A stretch of 64,000 bases of DNA, from NCBI GenBank assembly GCA_947570175.1, contig CANOTJ010000004.1, positions 1-64,000 on the forward strand, read 5' to 3'. Made by a program: the position numbers and the translations under genes. Under the pieces are notes generated by a model. The model searched no databases and was not told the origin of the DNA. It saw nothing but the letters and a program-made list of their open reading frames with translations. Of this stretch, positions 54,929 to 62,406 are shown one piece after another (the stretch's first letter is position 1; the number at the start of each line of letters is the position of its first letter). This DNA is from an uncultured Mycoplasmatota bacterium. GTDB taxonomy: Bacteria > Bacillota_I > Bacilli_A > RF39 > UBA660.

Positions 54929-55276
54929 ATGAAGAAAATAATCATAATTAGTATTTTATGTCTTATAATCTGTGGATGTAGTAATCGTAATTCTTATCAA
55001 ACAATTAATGTGGATACTGCAAAAGCAAAAATAAAAGAAGGAGCATATCTTATAGATGTAAGATCAAGACAAGAGTATATAGAAAATCATATACAAGGAG
55101 CAATTAATATTCCAGTGGATGAAATAGAAAATCCAAAGAAAAAAATTATCTCTAAAAATGATGTTGTCATCGTTTATTGTAAAAGTGGTGGAAGAAGTAA
55201 ACAGGCAGCTGATAAATTAATCAATATGGGATATCAATATGTATATGATTTTGGAGCAATGGAAAACTGGAAATAA
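54929..55276 (+). CDS. Rhodanese-like lipoprotein
   Basis: A lipoprotein signal with lipobox (LIICGC, Cys about residue 17) is followed by a single rhodanese domain: AYLIDVRSRQEYIENHIQGA and the active-site loop VYCKSGGRSKQAA with the catalytic Cys. 115 aa. It would act at the outer face of the membrane in sulfur or persulfide transfer; the partner is unknown. Confidence 0.88.
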   Translation: MKKIIIISILCLIICGCSNRNSYQTINVDTAKAKIKEGAYLIDVRSRQEYIENHIQGAINIPVDEIENPKKKIISKNDVVIVYCKSGGRSKQAADKLINMGYQYVYDFGAMENWK

Positions 55277-55340
55277 TTTGAATGACCAAAATAACTAGTA
55301 AAAGCTGGTTATTTTTGTTATAATGAATCAAGGTGATTTT

Positions 55341-56105
55341 ATGACACAATTTGGCTCATTAATGATGACTCTTTTAACAGGTTTATTTATGTTAATAGGG
55401 CTTATTATTATTCTTTGTACAAGAAACAACAATCGTGTAGTAAACTTTTCTATTAGTATGGCTTTTGGGGTAATTGTAATGCTCGTATTATTAGAATTAA
55501 TTCCAGAATCCTATGAATTAATAACCAATCAATCGGGACTTCCTATGAATATCATTTTTATGATTATCTTTACATTTATGGGAATTATTCTATTAAAAGT
55601 ATTAGATCATTTTATTCCTGATCATGAAATGCTAGAAGAAAATCAAAAGGAAGTAGATGATAATTTTCTCCATATTGGAATTGTTTCTAGTATTGCTTTA
55701 GTACTTCATAATTTGATTGAAGGAATGGCTATTTATAGTAGTACCAAAACTTCTATGGATATGGGATTTTTAGTAGCAATAGGAGTTGGTCTTCATAATA
55801 TTCCAATGGGAATGGTGGTTACTTCTACTTTTTATAAAGCTAATAAAAGTATTCATAAAACCGTATTATTAACAACAGCAATTGCTTTATCCACTTTTTT
55901 AGGTGGATTCATTATGGTCTTTTTAAATCGTTTTATAACAGATACTTTCCTTGGAATTTTGCTTTGTATTACTCTTGGAATGTTAATCTATATTATATTT
56001 TTTGAGTTACTAGAAGAAATGATTCATAACAAAGATAGAAAAATAACAGTAATTGGAATGTTATTTGGTATTATAATATTTTTAATTAGTATGTTTTTAG
56101 AATAG
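55341..56105 (+). CDS. ZIP-family metal transporter
   Basis: A polytopic membrane protein (254 aa, about eight helices) with the ZIP metal-site helices IALVLHNLIEGMAIYSST and GVGLHNIPMGMVVTSTFY. These import zinc or other divalent cations in the family. ATG 55341 follows AAGGTGAT; the longer frame to 55323 lacks a ribosome site. Confidence 0.9.
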   Translation: MTQFGSLMMTLLTGLFMLIGLIIILCTRNNNRVVNFSISMAFGVIVMLVLLELIPESYELITNQSGLPMNIIFMIIFTFMGIILLKVLDHFIPDHEMLEENQKEVDDNFLHIGIVSSIALVLHNLIEGMAIYSSTKTSMDMGFLVAIGVGLHNIPMGMVVTSTFYKANKSIHKTVLLTTAIALSTFLGGFIMVFLNRFITDTFLGILLCITLGMLIYIIFFELLEEMIHNKDRKITVIGMLFGIIIFLISMFLE

Positions 56106-56142
56106 TATTATTTTTCATACTGACAAAATCCTTCTTTTCTAT

Positions 56143-56218
56143 TTGACTTTCCATAGGCTTTATTATAAAATATAAATAGAAAGGGATCTAATATAGGTCA
56201 ATTTGACCATAATTAGAT
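56143..56218 (+). promoter_or_regulatory. Promoter and 33-bp palindrome before the short prepilin-like gene
   Basis: TTGACT (56143), 17 bases, TAAAAT (56166-56171). The transcribed leader then holds a palindrome, 56186-56218, with arms ATCTAATATAGGTCAA and TTTGACCATAATTAGAT (7 outer and 6 inner paired bases). No T tract follows, so it is an operator or an RNA hairpin controlling translation. The gene's ATG at 56232 lacks a clear ribosome site. Confidence 0.6.
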
Positions 56219-56231
56219 TATACGTGATTGT

Positions 56232-56564
56232 ATGAAAAAGGGATTTACACTAGTAGAACTTTTAGCTGTTCTGGTTTTACTTGGATTAATACTTGGACTC
56301 GTTTTTCCAAATGTTGTTGATCAATTTCGGAAAAGGCAAAAAGAAATAGATGACTCAAAACTAAAATTAATTTATAGTGGAGCAAAAAGCTACTGTAAAG
56401 AAAGCAATGAGGGATTTCCTTGTACAGTTTCCTTGAGAACGCTTGATTTAGAAAATAAACTTCCTTTTGAATTAGATGAAGATTATGCATCTTATCAATG
56501 TATTACAGTAACAAAAGTATCGGATGGGAAATATTCCTATGATTATAGTGAAAAAGGGTGCTAA
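56232..56564 (+). CDS. Short prepilin-like protein
   Basis: It begins MKKGFTLVELLAVLVLLG, a canonical prepilin-type signal with Glu at mature +5, then one hydrophobic helix and a short exported domain with three Cys near the end (total 110 aa). Resembles ComGC/pseudopilin-size proteins but without clear ComG identity. No assembly ATPase or prepilin peptidase is nearby. It lies just upstream of the 6S RNA promoter. Confidence 0.78.
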   Translation: MKKGFTLVELLAVLVLLGLILGLVFPNVVDQFRKRQKEIDDSKLKLIYSGAKSYCKESNEGFPCTVSLRTLDLENKLPFELDEDYASYQCITVTKVSDGKYSYDYSEKGC

Positions 56565-56569
56565 AACAA

Positions 56570-56598
56570 TTGCAAATCAAAAAAATATATGGTACAAT
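56570..56598 (+). promoter_or_regulatory. 6S RNA promoter
   Basis: TTGCAA, 17 bases, TACAAT, placing the start at about 56604. Confidence 0.75.
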
Positions 56599-56603
56599 AA
56601 AAA

Positions 56604-56765
56604 CACTAGAAGGAAAATATTTGAAAAAACCTACAAGTTTAACGATTGGGAATCTAATTTATAAATGGTGTTGAAGGCTTATTTTAATAAGAATCCTAAA
56701 ATTTATAATGTGATGCCCACCTGGGAGATCAGGTTTTATCGTTAATATATCCTTCTAGTTTTTGT
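56604..56765 (+). ncRNA. ssrS: 6S RNA (candidate)
   Basis: A transcript of about 160 nt is closed by a perfect terminal stem, ACTAGAAGG (56605-56613) with CCTTCTAGT (56751-56759), followed by TTTTTG. Between them is an interrupted long-hairpin layout including GTGATGCCCACCTGGGAGAT near the 3' side, which I associate with Bacillota 6S RNAs. 6S RNA sequesters housekeeping RNA polymerase in stationary phase. Identified by layout and partial sequence memory; a covariance search would settle it. Confidence 0.7.
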
Positions 56766-56831
56766 TTGCGTAAATCTTGTTTTTTTTTTACTAGATTGCT
56801 ATAATTGATATAGTAGCAGGAGGTTACAAGT

Positions 56832-59045
56832 ATGGCCAAAAAGAAAAAAAGAAAAGAAACAAAAAAAAAGGATACAGGATATCAAGTTGAACTAATTGGC
56901 TTGTTATTAATATTAATAGCTATCATTGGATTTATTCCAAATACAGGAATGGTAGGAGGATTTATTAGTGACTTTGCTGTTTTCTTAGTAGGAACTTGGT
57001 ATAATTTATTGTTAGTAGCTGTAATAGTTGTTGGCATATATATGATGATTAAAAGAGAAAAACCAGATTTTTTTACTTCTAAATTAGTTGGACTCTATAT
57101 CTTTGCAATCGGAATTTTAATTTTTTCCCATATCAAATATTTAGAGAATACCAAATTAGAAGGTTTCGATATTATTACAGAAACAGTCAATAATTTTATG
57201 GCTTCTAAAAATCATGGGAATACAGGTGGAGGAATTATTGGGGCTATATTTTCTTTACTATTTGTAACCCTATTTGATTTAAATGGAACTAAAATAGTCA
57301 CATGGGCCCTTTTAATTTGTGGGGCTGTTATGTTTACAGGTGTATCGATGTATGATGCTATCAAAGCAATTATCCATAAACTGAAACAATATGGGGTAAG
57401 AGAAAAACAAGCTAAAGATGAAAAAGAGATTAAACAAACAGAAGAAGATTATGAGAAAGATGATAAAATTGTAGTTTCCTCAGTTGATGAATTAATTCAT
57501 ATGCCAGTAGAAGATAAAATTATGGTCAATGATGCAACAGGGGAAGTAATAGAAAAAGAAACAGAAAAAGTGGATGAAAATAGCAACTACATATATCCTC
57601 CGATTTCATTATTAACAAAACCAAGTAAAAATAAAAACACAGATTCTAAAGAAGTAATTAATCATAACGTAGAAACGTTAGAACAAGTATTTAAAGACTT
57701 TAGTTTAGAAGGAAAAGTAGTAGCGATTAATCCAGGACCTGCCGTCACACAATATGAAATGGAAGTAAAGTCGGGGACAAAACTGAGTAAAATTTTAAGT
57801 TTGCACAGTGAAATTGCTTTGGCTTTAGCTGCAAAAGATGTTCGGATTCAAGCACCAATTCCAGGTAAATCTACAATTGGAGTAGAAATACCAAATAAAA
57901 TAACTTCTATGGTTACTGTTCGTGAAATTCTAGAAAGTGTTCCTAAAAGTATGGAAAATTCAAAATTACTTGTAACTTTAGGTAAGAACATTATGGGAAG
58001 ACCAGTATACTGTGAGGTTAATAAAACTCCCCACCTTTTAGTAGCAGGATCTACAGGAAGTGGTAAATCTGTTTGTATCAATAGTATTATTATATCTATT
58101 TTAATGCGTGCAAAACCAGATGAGGTAAAATTGGTATTAGTCGATCCTAAAAAAGTTGAATTATCGATGTACAATGGAGTACCACATTTACTCGCACCAG
58201 TAGTAACGGATCCTAAAAAAGCCAATATTGCTCTTAAAAAAATCGTAGTAGAAATGGAAAGAAGATATGACTTATTTAGCGATAGTGGAACTAAAAACAT
58301 TGCAGGATATAATGCTTATATAGATAAGAAAAATGAAAAACTTTCAGAAGAGGAGAAATTAAAACATTTACCATTTATTGTAGTGATTATTGATGAGCTA
58401 GCAGATTTAATGCTAGTAGCTGCAAAAGAGGTGGAAGATTCTATTATGCGAATTACCCAAATGGCAAGAGCAGCAGGAATTCATTTAATAGTTGCAACTC
58501 AAAGGCCATCTACTGATGTTATTACAGGAGTAGTAAAAGCAAATATTCCATCTAGAATTGCATTTACAGTTTCTTCTAGTATTGACTCTAGAACCATTTT
58601 AGATCAAACAGGAGCTGAAAAGTTACTAGGAAAAGGAGATATGTTATTTCTTCCGCAAGGAGAAAATACCCCTATTAGAGTTCAAGGAACATTCCTTTCT
58701 GATGAGGAAATAAAATCAGTAGTAGATCATACTATTGCACAACAGATTGCGAGATATGATGAAACATTGATTATGGATGATGAAGAAATGAAAGCAACAA
58801 GTATGGTAGAAGGAACCCCAAAAGAAGATGATTATGAAGAACCATTATATAATGAAATTGTCGAATTTGTAATTACACAAGGAAAAGCCAGTGCTTCTTT
58901 ATTACAAAGAAGATTTCATTTAGGCTATAATCGAGCCGCTAGAGTAATTGACCTATTGGAAGCCAGAGGAATCATAGGACCAAATAATGGATCAAAACCA
59001 AGAGAAGTCCTTGTAAAATTAGAAAAAAATGAAGAAGAGGAATAA
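56832..59045 (+). CDS. ftsK: DNA translocase FtsK/SpoIIIE
   Basis: Four membrane helices in the first 180 residues, a charged linker, then the RecA-like motor: Walker A VAGSTGSGKSVCINS, Walker B IVVIIDELADLM, MARAAGIHLIVATQRPS. The C-terminal winged-helix gamma domain is intact (GKASASLLQRRFHLGYNRAA). 737 aa. It clears chromosome ends through the septum. AGGAGG precedes the ATG; a TATAAT lies about 25 bases upstream. Confidence 0.95.
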   Translation: MAKKKKRKETKKKDTGYQVELIGLLLILIAIIGFIPNTGMVGGFISDFAVFLVGTWYNLLLVAVIVVGIYMMIKREKPDFFTSKLVGLYIFAIGILIFSHIKYLENTKLEGFDIITETVNNFMASKNHGNTGGGIIGAIFSLLFVTLFDLNGTKIVTWALLICGAVMFTGVSMYDAIKAIIHKLKQYGVREKQAKDEKEIKQTEEDYEKDDKIVVSSVDELIHMPVEDKIMVNDATGEVIEKETEKVDENSNYIYPPISLLTKPSKNKNTDSKEVINHNVETLEQVFKDFSLEGKVVAINPGPAVTQYEMEVKSGTKLSKILSLHSEIALALAAKDVRIQAPIPGKSTIGVEIPNKITSMVTVREILESVPKSMENSKLLVTLGKNIMGRPVYCEVNKTPHLLVAGSTGSGKSVCINSIIISILMRAKPDEVKLVLVDPKKVELSMYNGVPHLLAPVVTDPKKANIALKKIVVEMERRYDLFSDSGTKNIAGYNAYIDKKNEKLSEEEKLKHLPFIVVIIDELADLMLVAAKEVEDSIMRITQMARAAGIHLIVATQRPSTDVITGVVKANIPSRIAFTVSSSIDSRTILDQTGAEKLLGKGDMLFLPQGENTPIRVQGTFLSDEEIKSVVDHTIAQQIARYDETLIMDDEEMKATSMVEGTPKEDDYEEPLYNEIVEFVITQGKASASLLQRRFHLGYNRAARVIDLLEARGIIGPNNGSKPREVLVKLEKNEEEE

Positions 59046-59175: not shown

Positions 59176-60246
59176 ATGATGGAAAATATGGAAAATGTGA
59201 ACTCTGAAGATCAAAATATAGAAAATATGGAATCAGAAAACGAACCATTAGAAGATGATTTTTACTATGAAAATGGTGATGAATTGGATTTGGATAGTAT
59301 TCAAGAAATTGATCCTATTGAAATCCCTAATATGTCTTTTTCAAATAATGCACAAGAAGATGAAGGAGAAACACCACAAATTTTTGAAAATGTTCCAAAT
59401 CAAGAAGAGCAGGTTGAAACAACAGGTTTTGATATGCCACAATTCTCAACTCATGATATGGATCAAATTGTAGAGGAACTAGATCGTTCGGAAATGACTG
59501 AAGATGACGACCGCGAATATAGTGGGGCTAGTTTTGATGATATGTTTGATAGTTTATATAATGACGTTGAAGGAGCTAATCATTTTATTAGTAATCTAAT
59601 TGATCAAAAGAAAAATGTAAGTGAAAATGAAACAGAACTTGCTGAGATGCGCGAAAAATTAGAACAAGAGAAGGCAGATTTTGCAAAACAAATGGAAACT
59701 CAGAAAGAAAATATTCGCATGGAAAAAATAAAATGTGATGAATACATCAAAACACAAAAAATTCGTTTACAAAATGAAGAATCGCAATTCAATGCCGATG
59801 TTGAGGCAACTAGAACAGAACTTAATTTAGGAGAGCAAAGTCTGAAAATAGCAGGTGAAAAATTAGATACTGAAAAATCCCAATTTGAAAAATATAAAGA
59901 ACTAGAGGAAGAAAAATTAAGAAACGACCGTATAAAACTACAATCAGAAATGGAACAATTCGAAAAATATAAGGCATTAGAAGAAGAAAAAATTAAAGAA
60001 GAAAATATCACATTAAATTCTTCTAGGGAACAATTTGATAAAGAAAGAGAAAATGCTTTAGAAAAAATTGAAACAGGAAAAAAAGAATTAGAAACTGAAA
60101 AAGAACAATTCGCTCGTTATAAAGAAGTAGAAGAGAAAAAATTAGAACATGAAAGTAAAAATCTATCACAAAGTTGCGCCAGATTTAAAGAATTAGTAGC
60201 TCAATTTAATTCAGGATTCCAAAAATTACCAGACGATAATCAATAA
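59176..60246 (+). CDS. Coiled-coil protein with four 25-residue repeats
   Basis: No known family. Residues 1-115 are acidic and disordered-looking. Residues about 150-332 form a long coiled coil. Within it, residues 233-332 are four consecutive units of exactly 25 residues (starts 233, 258, 283, 308) of the type E-x-x-QF-x-x-Y-K-x-x-EEEK(L/I), a 7+7+11 spacing. The C terminus (RFKELVAQFNSGFQKL) closely resembles that of the next gene. No signal or membrane segment: a cytoplasmic scaffold or filament is likely. AAGGAGAGG precedes the ATG; an extended -10 (TGTTATACT) lies at about 59101. Confidence 0.7.
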   Translation: MMENMENVNSEDQNIENMESENEPLEDDFYYENGDELDLDSIQEIDPIEIPNMSFSNNAQEDEGETPQIFENVPNQEEQVETTGFDMPQFSTHDMDQIVEELDRSEMTEDDDREYSGASFDDMFDSLYNDVEGANHFISNLIDQKKNVSENETELAEMREKLEQEKADFAKQMETQKENIRMEKIKCDEYIKTQKIRLQNEESQFNADVEATRTELNLGEQSLKIAGEKLDTEKSQFEKYKELEEEKLRNDRIKLQSEMEQFEKYKALEEEKIKEENITLNSSREQFDKERENALEKIETGKKELETEKEQFARYKEVEEKKLEHESKNLSQSCARFKELVAQFNSGFQKLPDDNQ

Positions 60247-60257
60247 GAGGTCTTATC

Positions 60258-61022
60258 TTGAAAGATAAAGAACTAGAAAAAGAAATAAAGTTAGATACAA
60301 GTTTTGATTTGTTAAAAACAGATGGTTTTGACTTGTCTTCTATTGGAATAAAAAGAAAACAAGAAGAGGATGATCAAGAACAAGAAGAAACACCTATAGA
60401 AGAAGCATCTGCAGAAGAAAAAGGGAAAGAAACAGAAGAGATTCAGGTTAAATCAGACGAAAAACAAGCAGAACTAAAAGATATTAAAGATATTTTTGAA
60501 ATTGCCAACAACAATGTTCGAGAAGCAACGAATATCTTTAATAAGAATATCGATTTAAAGAATAAGTTGGATGAAGAATTAAAAGAAATAAAGAAATTGA
60601 GAATAGAACACGAAAAAAGGGTTCAAGAAGAGAAAGAAAAAATTGCTTCTTACAGGGAAGAAGTATTTGAAAGTTTAAGAGAAAAAAAATTAGAGATTGA
60701 AAAGCAATTAGAATATTTAAAGAAATCAAAATCTAGATTTTCAGATGAAAAAAAACAATTTGAAGAAGAGAAACAAATAACCCTTTCAGAATTAGAAAGC
60801 CAAAAAGAAGATATCCATGATCAGAAATTGGAAATTAAAAAACAAATCAAAAGTATAGAGGAACAAAAAGATCAATTGGATAAAGAAAAAACACAATTAG
60901 AATTGGACCGTTTAAAATACGAATCAGATAAAGAAGAGTTGACCACTAACCTTGTGAAATTTAATGAATTAGTTGGAAATTTTAGTGTGGGAATTGATAA
61001 ATTTAACAAATACGAAGATTAA
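60258..61022 (+). CDS. Coiled-coil protein, partner of the preceding gene
   Basis: 254 aa; N-terminal acidic linker, then an almost continuous coiled coil from about residue 70 to 230, and a C-terminal KFNELVGNFSVGIDKF that parallels RFKELVAQFNSGFQKL of the upstream protein. TTG start at 60258 with AAGAGGT upstream, 11 bases after the previous stop, so the two are co-transcribed. Terminated at 61012-61036 (ACGAAGA / TCTTCGT). Function unknown; a paired cytoskeletal or division-site scaffold is conceivable beside ftsK. Confidence 0.68.
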   Translation: MKDKELEKEIKLDTSFDLLKTDGFDLSSIGIKRKQEEDDQEQEETPIEEASAEEKGKETEEIQVKSDEKQAELKDIKDIFEIANNNVREATNIFNKNIDLKNKLDEELKEIKKLRIEHEKRVQEEKEKIASYREEVFESLREKKLEIEKQLEYLKKSKSRFSDEKKQFEEEKQITLSELESQKEDIHDQKLEIKKQIKSIEEQKDQLDKEKTQLELDRLKYESDKEELTTNLVKFNELVGNFSVGIDKFNKYED

Positions 61023-61041
61023 TTTCTTCGTTTTTATTATA

Positions 61042-61070
61042 TTGACTTTTTGGATCATAAGTGTTATGAT
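61042..61070 (+). promoter_or_regulatory. secE-nusG promoter
   Basis: TTGACT, 17 bases, TATGAT. Confidence 0.8.
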
Positions 61071-61872: not shown

Positions 61873-62406
61873 ATGAAAAAGAAAAAAGTAGAAGAATTTT
61901 TTGTACAAGTACAAGATAAGTTATTTCGTAAATTGAATATAAATACAGAAGCACATTTATTTTTAATGATAATAGAAAATGCAATTTATTTGAATAATAA
62001 CCCAGAAAATTTAAAATTAATTATAGAATATGGAGAAAAACTGGATGAAGTTTATCAAAAATCTTTAATTGAAAAAGAAAATCAAACAAGAAGTTGTTTA
62101 AGAAAAAAATTGATAAAAAAATATAGTATTTTAAAGTTTTTTATAAAGAATAGGGAAAATATAGAAAAAGCATGCAATAGTATGATGCCTTCTTTGATAG
62201 ACGAGTCTTGCACTATTGACTTTGATATGAAAATTTTAAATGAAGAAACAGATCAACCGATTAAATTAACAAATGAAAATAAAAAGTTTTTATTAGAATT
62301 ATTTCAAAATAGCCCAATAAGGGAATTGTTTAGCGATAGTGAATGGAAGATTGCTAAAAATGCCCCATCTAAAATCTTGGTGTGCAAAACAAAAAGAAAA
62401 AGATAA
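61873..62406 (+). CDS. Hypothetical protein between nusG and rplK
   Basis: A helical, basic 177-aa protein starting MKKKKVEEFFVQVQDKLFRK. No motif recognised and no membrane segment. GTAGGGGGAT lies upstream and it follows nusG by 20 bases, so it is probably co-transcribed with secE-nusG. A gene at this point is unusual: most Bacillota go straight from nusG to rplK. Confidence 0.6.
   Translation: MKKKKVEEFFVQVQDKLFRKLNINTEAHLFLMIIENAIYLNNNPENLKLIIEYGEKLDEVYQKSLIEKENQTRSCLRKKLIKKYSILKFFIKNRENIEKACNSMMPSLIDESCTIDFDMKILNEETDQPIKLTNENKKFLLELFQNSPIRELFSDSEWKIAKNAPSKILVCKTKRKR

Follow-up and report, generated by a model that had tools for sequence, protein, structure and literature searches.

The whole stretch of DNA analysed here, hereafter the window, is 64,000 nucleotides long and carries two adjacent genes for coiled-coil proteins, X and Y. 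Judging from the homologues collected, the X rod appears to evolve in length almost only by whole 25-residue repeats, with its helical phase kept and independently of Y, which suggests that it must keep step either with its own structure or with a repetitive component of the cell. The best reading of the searches is that X and Y form a new lineage-specific family, seemingly confined to one bacterial family of its class, and no description of it was found in the open-licence literature of PMC.

Architecture of the two proteins

Protein X (356 aa; 59176..60246, + strand) was delimited by its open reading frame and translation, an AlphaFold2 model and its homologues, and protein Y (254 aa; 60258..61022, +), a paralogue of X whose rod length is nearly constant, by its open reading frame, an AlphaFold2 model and a profile comparison. 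The original prediction of two adjacent coiled-coil proteins was borne out, both reading frames being present and related to each other.

Sequence and model together give X an acidic disordered N-terminus, a conserved head, a rod of 25-residue repeats and a conserved C-terminal tail. The disordered region, residues 1-117 (59176..59526, +), was assigned from the pLDDT of the model, below 50 nearly throughout, and from composition, with 34% D/E against 2% K/R in the first 113 residues. It contains DDFYY at residues 27-31, and a [DE]D[FI][FYV] motif is present in the N-terminal tails of many X homologues. Short motifs of the DDFFY/EDFFD type recur across genera within the disordered tail, 20-50 residues after its beginning, and could possibly act as a docking peptide.

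The X head (residues 120-145, FDDMFDSLYNDVEGANHFISNLIDQK; 59533..59610, +) stands at the start of the helix and is conserved in the alignments as well as in the short DUF1292-linked relatives described below, and the X tail (residues 330-352, LSQSCARFKELVAQFNSGFQKLP; 60163..60231, +) was defined from alignments. Self-comparison of the sequence delimits four units of 25 aa each in residues 233-332 (59872..60171, +), namely 233-257, 258-282, 283-307 and 308-332. They had been announced as exact repeats, and their spacing is indeed exact, with the QF pairs expected at residues 236, 261, 286 and 311 all found in the translation, but their sequence is not, since any two of them agree at 7-15 of 25 residues. 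Shifted by 25, residues 233-332 match themselves at 31/75 positions, and of 5000 shuffles of the residues none attained that fraction at any lag between 5 and 50. Over 23 genus entries that include one duplicate contig (L022), hydrophobic residues recur along the X coil with a strongest period of 3.57 residues, equal to 25/7, and given this period the 7+7+11 pattern that had been proposed, a non-heptad period of 25 residues, is a reasonable one. Furthermore, in many genera Phe is placed 24, 49, 74, 99, 124, 149, 174 and 199 residues before the X tail.

AlphaFold2 predicts a single helix for each protein, at residues 120-349 in X and at residues 65-252 in Y, in both cases after a low-confidence N-terminal tail. 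These are single-chain models built from alignments of 3 sequences, with a pTM of about 0.3, and are silent on assembly; single-chain models from so few sequences yield long helices by default. No membrane-like segment was seen, the maximum over 19 residues on the Kyte-Doolittle scale being 1.05.

The Y head (residues 79-100, IFEIANNNVREATNIFNKNIDL; 60492..60557, +) was placed from alignments and the Y tail (residues 228-250, LTTNLVKFNELVGNFSVGIDKFN; 60939..61007, +) from alignments and from the comparison of the X and Y profiles. That the two proteins end alike, as had been noticed in the window, is confirmed by these profiles, which align from head to tail with 97% probability (E 4e-11), a match that coiled-coil bias may inflate and that spans both heads and both ends. 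On this sequence evidence, X and Y are paralogues.

Distribution of the family

The X query matched 7 of 60 genomes, its own included, and the Y query the same 7. When one genome per genus was taken, the X profile matched 22 of 145 and the Y profile 16, and over the family the X profile matched 57 of 386 genomes, in 26 of 150 genera; homologues of both proteins therefore exist in relatives, and all family-wide matches of either profile belong to the window's own family. Class-wide, the X search gave 2 of 296 genomes, both in this family, and the Y search 5 of 395, three of them in the family and two with partial coil matches inside open reading frames of 1170-1179 aa, taken as SMC-like from the size of the frame alone.

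The 57 genomes comprise 48 with a full X (head and tail), seven with a short DUF1292-linked type, and two, G271 and G346, with the tail half only or no callable X, which were left out of the X lengths while their Y rods (142) were counted. Rods were measured above cut-offs of 90 bits for X and 60 bits for Y. Contig L022 is apparently the same as L154 (both of 16,632 bases) and was dropped from the final counts; the earlier tables of 49 X rows and 43 Y rows still include it, and an earlier list of loci with both measured proteins ran to 41 through a duplicate contig.

The Pfam, NCBIfam and PHROGs libraries gave nothing for X or Y past weak coil matches, with no Pfam family at E<=0.01. A PDB sequence search gave best matches at E 0.07 for the X profile (spectrin) and E 0.0035 for the Y profile (KIF21A), and both were judged to be coil noise.

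The seven genomes of the short type lack the X-Y pair and carry a DUF1292 gene followed by a protein with an X-like module (L088 3628-4654, L089 5838-6774, L090 5842-6760, and also L133, L136, L149 and L159); this protein has an N-terminal region of its own, then a minimal X-like head, a coil of 60 residues and a tail. In G018 (L166 1-744) a DUF1292-like part, so labelled from its likeness to L088 and not from Pfam, and an X-like head lie in one open reading frame ended by the contig edge.

Gene linkage and genomic context

Y directly follows X on the same strand in all 40 distinct loci that hold both measured proteins, at a spacing of -1 to 15 bp, with the one exception of an overlap of 62 that may reflect a misplaced start. 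In 8 of 48 genomes, some of them represented by short contigs or incomplete assemblies, X occurs but no Y was measured, so that Y is not always needed. In the window, Y begins 11 bp after X, and GAGG (60247..60250, +), read from the sequence, is the likely ribosome-binding site for its TTG start. A terminator-like hairpin (61012..61031, +) overlaps the Y stop codon, and such sites are above shuffles (2 found, counting both strands of the site, against 0.4 expected). Beyond it lies a promoter-like site for secE (61042..61070, +), TTGACT-17-TATGAT with TG before the second hexamer, which agrees with 10 of 12 consensus positions, promoter-like sites as such not being above chance (10 vs 9.3). Co-transcription, as originally proposed, is thus plausible for X with Y, given the 11-bp gap, and doubtful for the pair with secE, because the hairpin overlaps the Y stop and the promoter-like site precedes secE.

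The gene directly upstream of X is sigH-like in 17 loci, ftsK in 6 and priA in 4, and other X-Y pairs adjoin sigH, priA, gyrA, xer, gltX or cysS. The order ftsK-X-Y-secE, which had been offered as a clue to function, did not survive this survey of relatives, as the window genome alone has the pair flanked by both ftsK and secE. One genome (G322) keeps the full order mrnC-rlmB-sigH-X-Y-secE-nusG-rplK-rplA, and another (G236) is like it except for an uncalled secE; the old site of the pair is likely mrnC-rlmB-sigH-[X-Y]-secE-nusG, and X and Y later moved as a pair. The sigH region was also taken from 20 of 28 X-negative relatives searched. None of the 20 has an X or Y match after sigH, a single match at E 0.06 lying inside the secE frame, and the pair was therefore gained in, or lost from, the sigH-secE junction. 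In these relatives secE directly follows sigH in 5, one small unlabelled open reading frame stands before nusG in 3 more, and other genes occupy the place in the rest.

Upstream of X-Y, window positions 55323-59045 hold a ZIP transporter gene, a short pilin-like gene with an N-terminal methylation motif, and ftsK, and this order before X-Y is repeated in three genomes of another genus (L084, L151, L160). A link with type IV pilins, considered on account of the pilin-like gene, was dropped since 54929-55276, the neighbour that the loci share, encodes a rhodanese, and since the loci are part of the mrnC-rlmB-sigH-secE island. On the other side, an open reading frame of 177 aa without a Pfam match (61873-62406) lies between nusG and rplK.

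Length steps of the X rod

Rod length was taken in every full X as the span between the GANNFIS-type head and the RFKELV-type tail. Among 48 distinct genomes it is 178 residues in 23, 253 in 5, 203 in 4, 153 in 4, 228 in 3, 221 in 3 and 210 in 2, with 246, 196, 150 and 135 seen once each. Expressed modulo 25, these lengths fall in class 3 in 39 genomes, class 21 in 5, class 10 in 3 and class 0 in 1; with one row per genus, classes 3, 21 and 10 hold 16, 3 and 3 of 22. Classes 21 and 10, which account for 8 of the 9 non-lattice rods, lie one heptad short of the main class and one heptad beyond it, respectively, and the off-lattice rod of 150 (G357) is 28 residues, or four heptads, short of 178. 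As a control, the lengths of the N-terminal tails were sorted likewise, and no class stands out among them, the best holding 6 of 48.

The steps are also apparent on a tree of the 48 rows, built from the X ends plus Y and with several long rows insecurely placed, which counts at least 12 length changes in X and only 6 changes of class. Some 6 of the length changes thus came in multiples of 25, for which P is about 3e-6 if the tree holds and each has a chance of 1/25. Two sets of proteins outside the set from which the pattern was drawn fit it as well: a divergent second copy in G350 has a rod of 103, that is 3 modulo 25, and the short DUF1292-linked relatives have 60, or 10 modulo 25, in 7 of 7. 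Seven turns of 3.57 residues each add up to 25 residues, so that the angle between the head and tail of X is preserved when a whole unit is gained or lost.

At the DNA level, 60/75 bases at lag 75 is reached in 1 of 48 genes (G188, 60/75), and units one repeat apart share fewer than 60/75 bases in 47 of 48 genomes, so that most X units are old. In the X gene of G262 (L138), two 75-bp units lying 150 bp apart are identical at 73/75 bases; X units thus appear to recombine still in places, this pair being an apparent trace of recent exchange between units.

Comparison with known coiled-coil systems

In the sections of PMC5344682 drawn on here, tropomyosin tolerates whole-repeat deletions and not half-repeat ones, and myosin packing is ordered by a 28-residue charge repeat. 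Tropomyosin and myosin II rods are, like X, long coiled coils with a long-range repeat (PMC5344682), but, in those sections, the repeat is about 40 residues in tropomyosin (280 in seven) and 28 for the myosin charges, against 25 in X. They are not homologous to X, which is bacterial, short and endowed with natural length variants. Length change by whole repeats, tested on X as a trait of tropomyosin-like rods, is seen in it, with 39 of 48 rods on one 25-residue lattice and 8 of the other 9 on the classes 7 residues above or below. The same sections describe SMC coiled-coil arms as multimodal in natural length and tolerant of resizing only at periodic lengths (PMC5344682), which likens them to X in their stepped lengths; their steps are of about 100 residues and tied to the superhelix (PMC5344682), and SMC proteins have an ATPase head and a hinge, whereas X and Y have neither. 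An SMC/Rad50-type ATPase was ruled out, as there is no ATPase and no Pfam family for X or Y at E<=0.01, and the NCBIfam SMC/Rad50 matches of Y are coil-only (7.9-18.4 bits vs cut-offs of 567-1087).

DivIVA, GpsB, FilP and Scy are Gram-positive coiled-coil proteins for which the excerpt of PMC9858780 used here gives RGYDxxEVD as the defining motif. It ascribes non-heptad (hendecad) stretches to FilP and Scy, as X is non-heptad; X, however, has a GAN(N)FIS-type head within the helix and lacks the DivIVA-like RGYDxxEVD. RGYD occurs in 0 of 49 X rows and 0 of 43 Y rows, and a DivIVA-like identity, in the sense of that excerpt, was rejected for want of this motif and of a Pfam match for X or Y. Crescentin and FilP resemble X as rods with a non-helical extension in which phase matters (stutter), according to the portions cited of PMC10873595 and PMC6599971, but X and Y have no sequence match to either and are known here from sequences and single-chain models. 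Of an intermediate-filament-like layout, the N-terminal tail and the rod are predicted for X and Y; only 2-7 residues follow the helix in the models, hence there is no real C-terminal tail domain in them. In synaptonemal complex-type proteins, coiled-coil length is conserved while sequence diverges, as stated in the part of PMC8598163 considered; Y is length-conserved in the same manner, whereas X is quantised and not conserved.

Possible roles of the pair

There is, in our estimate, an even chance that X and Y are co-expressed paralogous cytosolic coiled-coil rods, X being a self-associating scaffold or bundle and Y its fixed-length partner. In each, an acidic and disordered N-terminal tail is followed by a head, conserved and hydrophobic, where the helix starts, by one unbroken long helix, as predicted by the models, and by an end that is likewise conserved and hydrophobic. 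The X rod, whose architecture, paralogy with Y, linkage and length steps are read in the sequences, is built of 25-residue units of seven helical turns; at 0.1485 nm per residue, one unit measures about 3.7 nm. It gains or loses whole units, or takes a single step of 7 or 18 residues that preserves the phase, such that the angular relation of head and tail stays constant while length ranges from about 20 to 38 nm. Self-association of the rods, for which parallel dimers would be the simplest form, is our inference, as is their sideways packing in register, with one another or with a partner of repetitive structure, into a scaffold or bundle; tropomyosin and myosin offer precedents for such packing. 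The disordered tails would be docking strings, and Y would meet X at its ends and not lengthwise.

Packing has to be weighed against the fact that phase-preserving indels are expected in any selected coiled coil and that tandem-repeat recombination alone would produce 25-residue steps even in the absence of packing. The corresponding explanation, which we regard as a less probable one, is neutral turnover, in which unequal recombination adds and removes 75-bp units, an unbroken seam is all that selection demands and the rod is a plain spacer or tether joining whatever its ends bind. Steps of 7, 18 and 28 residues are also found in X, near-identical units exist in G262 (73/75), with G188 at 60/75 at lag 75, and rod length varies so widely that no fixed distance is kept, all of which agrees with turnover; yet most units are old (below 60/75 in 47 of 48 genomes) while the 25-residue Phe and charge harmonics persist across genera, a pattern that exceeds the needs of a seam. 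Packing is favoured since this Phe pattern has outlasted the divergence of the units. The estimates given for the several readings are not meant as exclusive.

The hetero-filament of the original prediction can be read as an in-register parallel X-Y heterodimer over the full length, which we find very improbable. End-to-end paralogy and constant adjacency speak for it, but Y rods measure 149 in 32 of 42 genomes, 142 in 6, 145 in 2, and 156 and 120 once each, while X runs from 135 to 253 head to tail; X rods of 153, 178, 203, 221, 228, 246 and 253 coexist with Y rods of 142-149, the lengths do not co-vary, and 8 of 48 genomes have X without a measured Y. Since Y does not follow X in length, full-length in-register pairing cannot hold for every species. 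A role in division or cell shape, also suggested for the window pair, finds no specific evidence, and a scaffold like crescentin, FilP or DivIVA seems unlikely to us. The tail-rod layout would suit it, as would ftsK upstream of X in 6 loci, ftsEX in one, and the presence of MreB in 21 of 22 genomes with X against 75 of 123 without it (Fisher P 0.001), an association uncorrected for relatedness, with 3 of the 22 X-positives of the short type and matches at E <1e-50 counted by hand, and hence a lead only. Against it stand the lack of RGYD in 49 X and 43 Y rows and of a DivIVA match in Pfam, and a neighbourhood that is mostly the sigH-secE island; DivIVA itself, in 144 of 145 genera sampled, is uninformative.

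MreB loss seems common in the window's family: of 145 genera, 96 have true MreB (E <1e-50) and the other 49 gave no such match, while X-positive genomes keep it in 21 of 22.

Going beyond the preferred reading of X as a self-associating rod, X might be the subunit of a bacterial lattice in the cytoplasm, hitherto undescribed, that repeats along its axis about every 3.7 nm and that Y would cap or space, although we consider this improbable. Were it true, rods of unlike length would stay commensurate, each being a whole number of 25-residue units. To our knowledge, few natural coiled coils change their length only in fixed steps. The natural series of X lengths (60, 103 and 135-253 residues) is suited to testing how a coiled-coil lattice reads length, and these variants make it testable whether quantisation comes from side-by-side packing or only from an unbroken seam. 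X and Y would also represent a lineage-specific pair of structural proteins in mostly uncultured bacteria.
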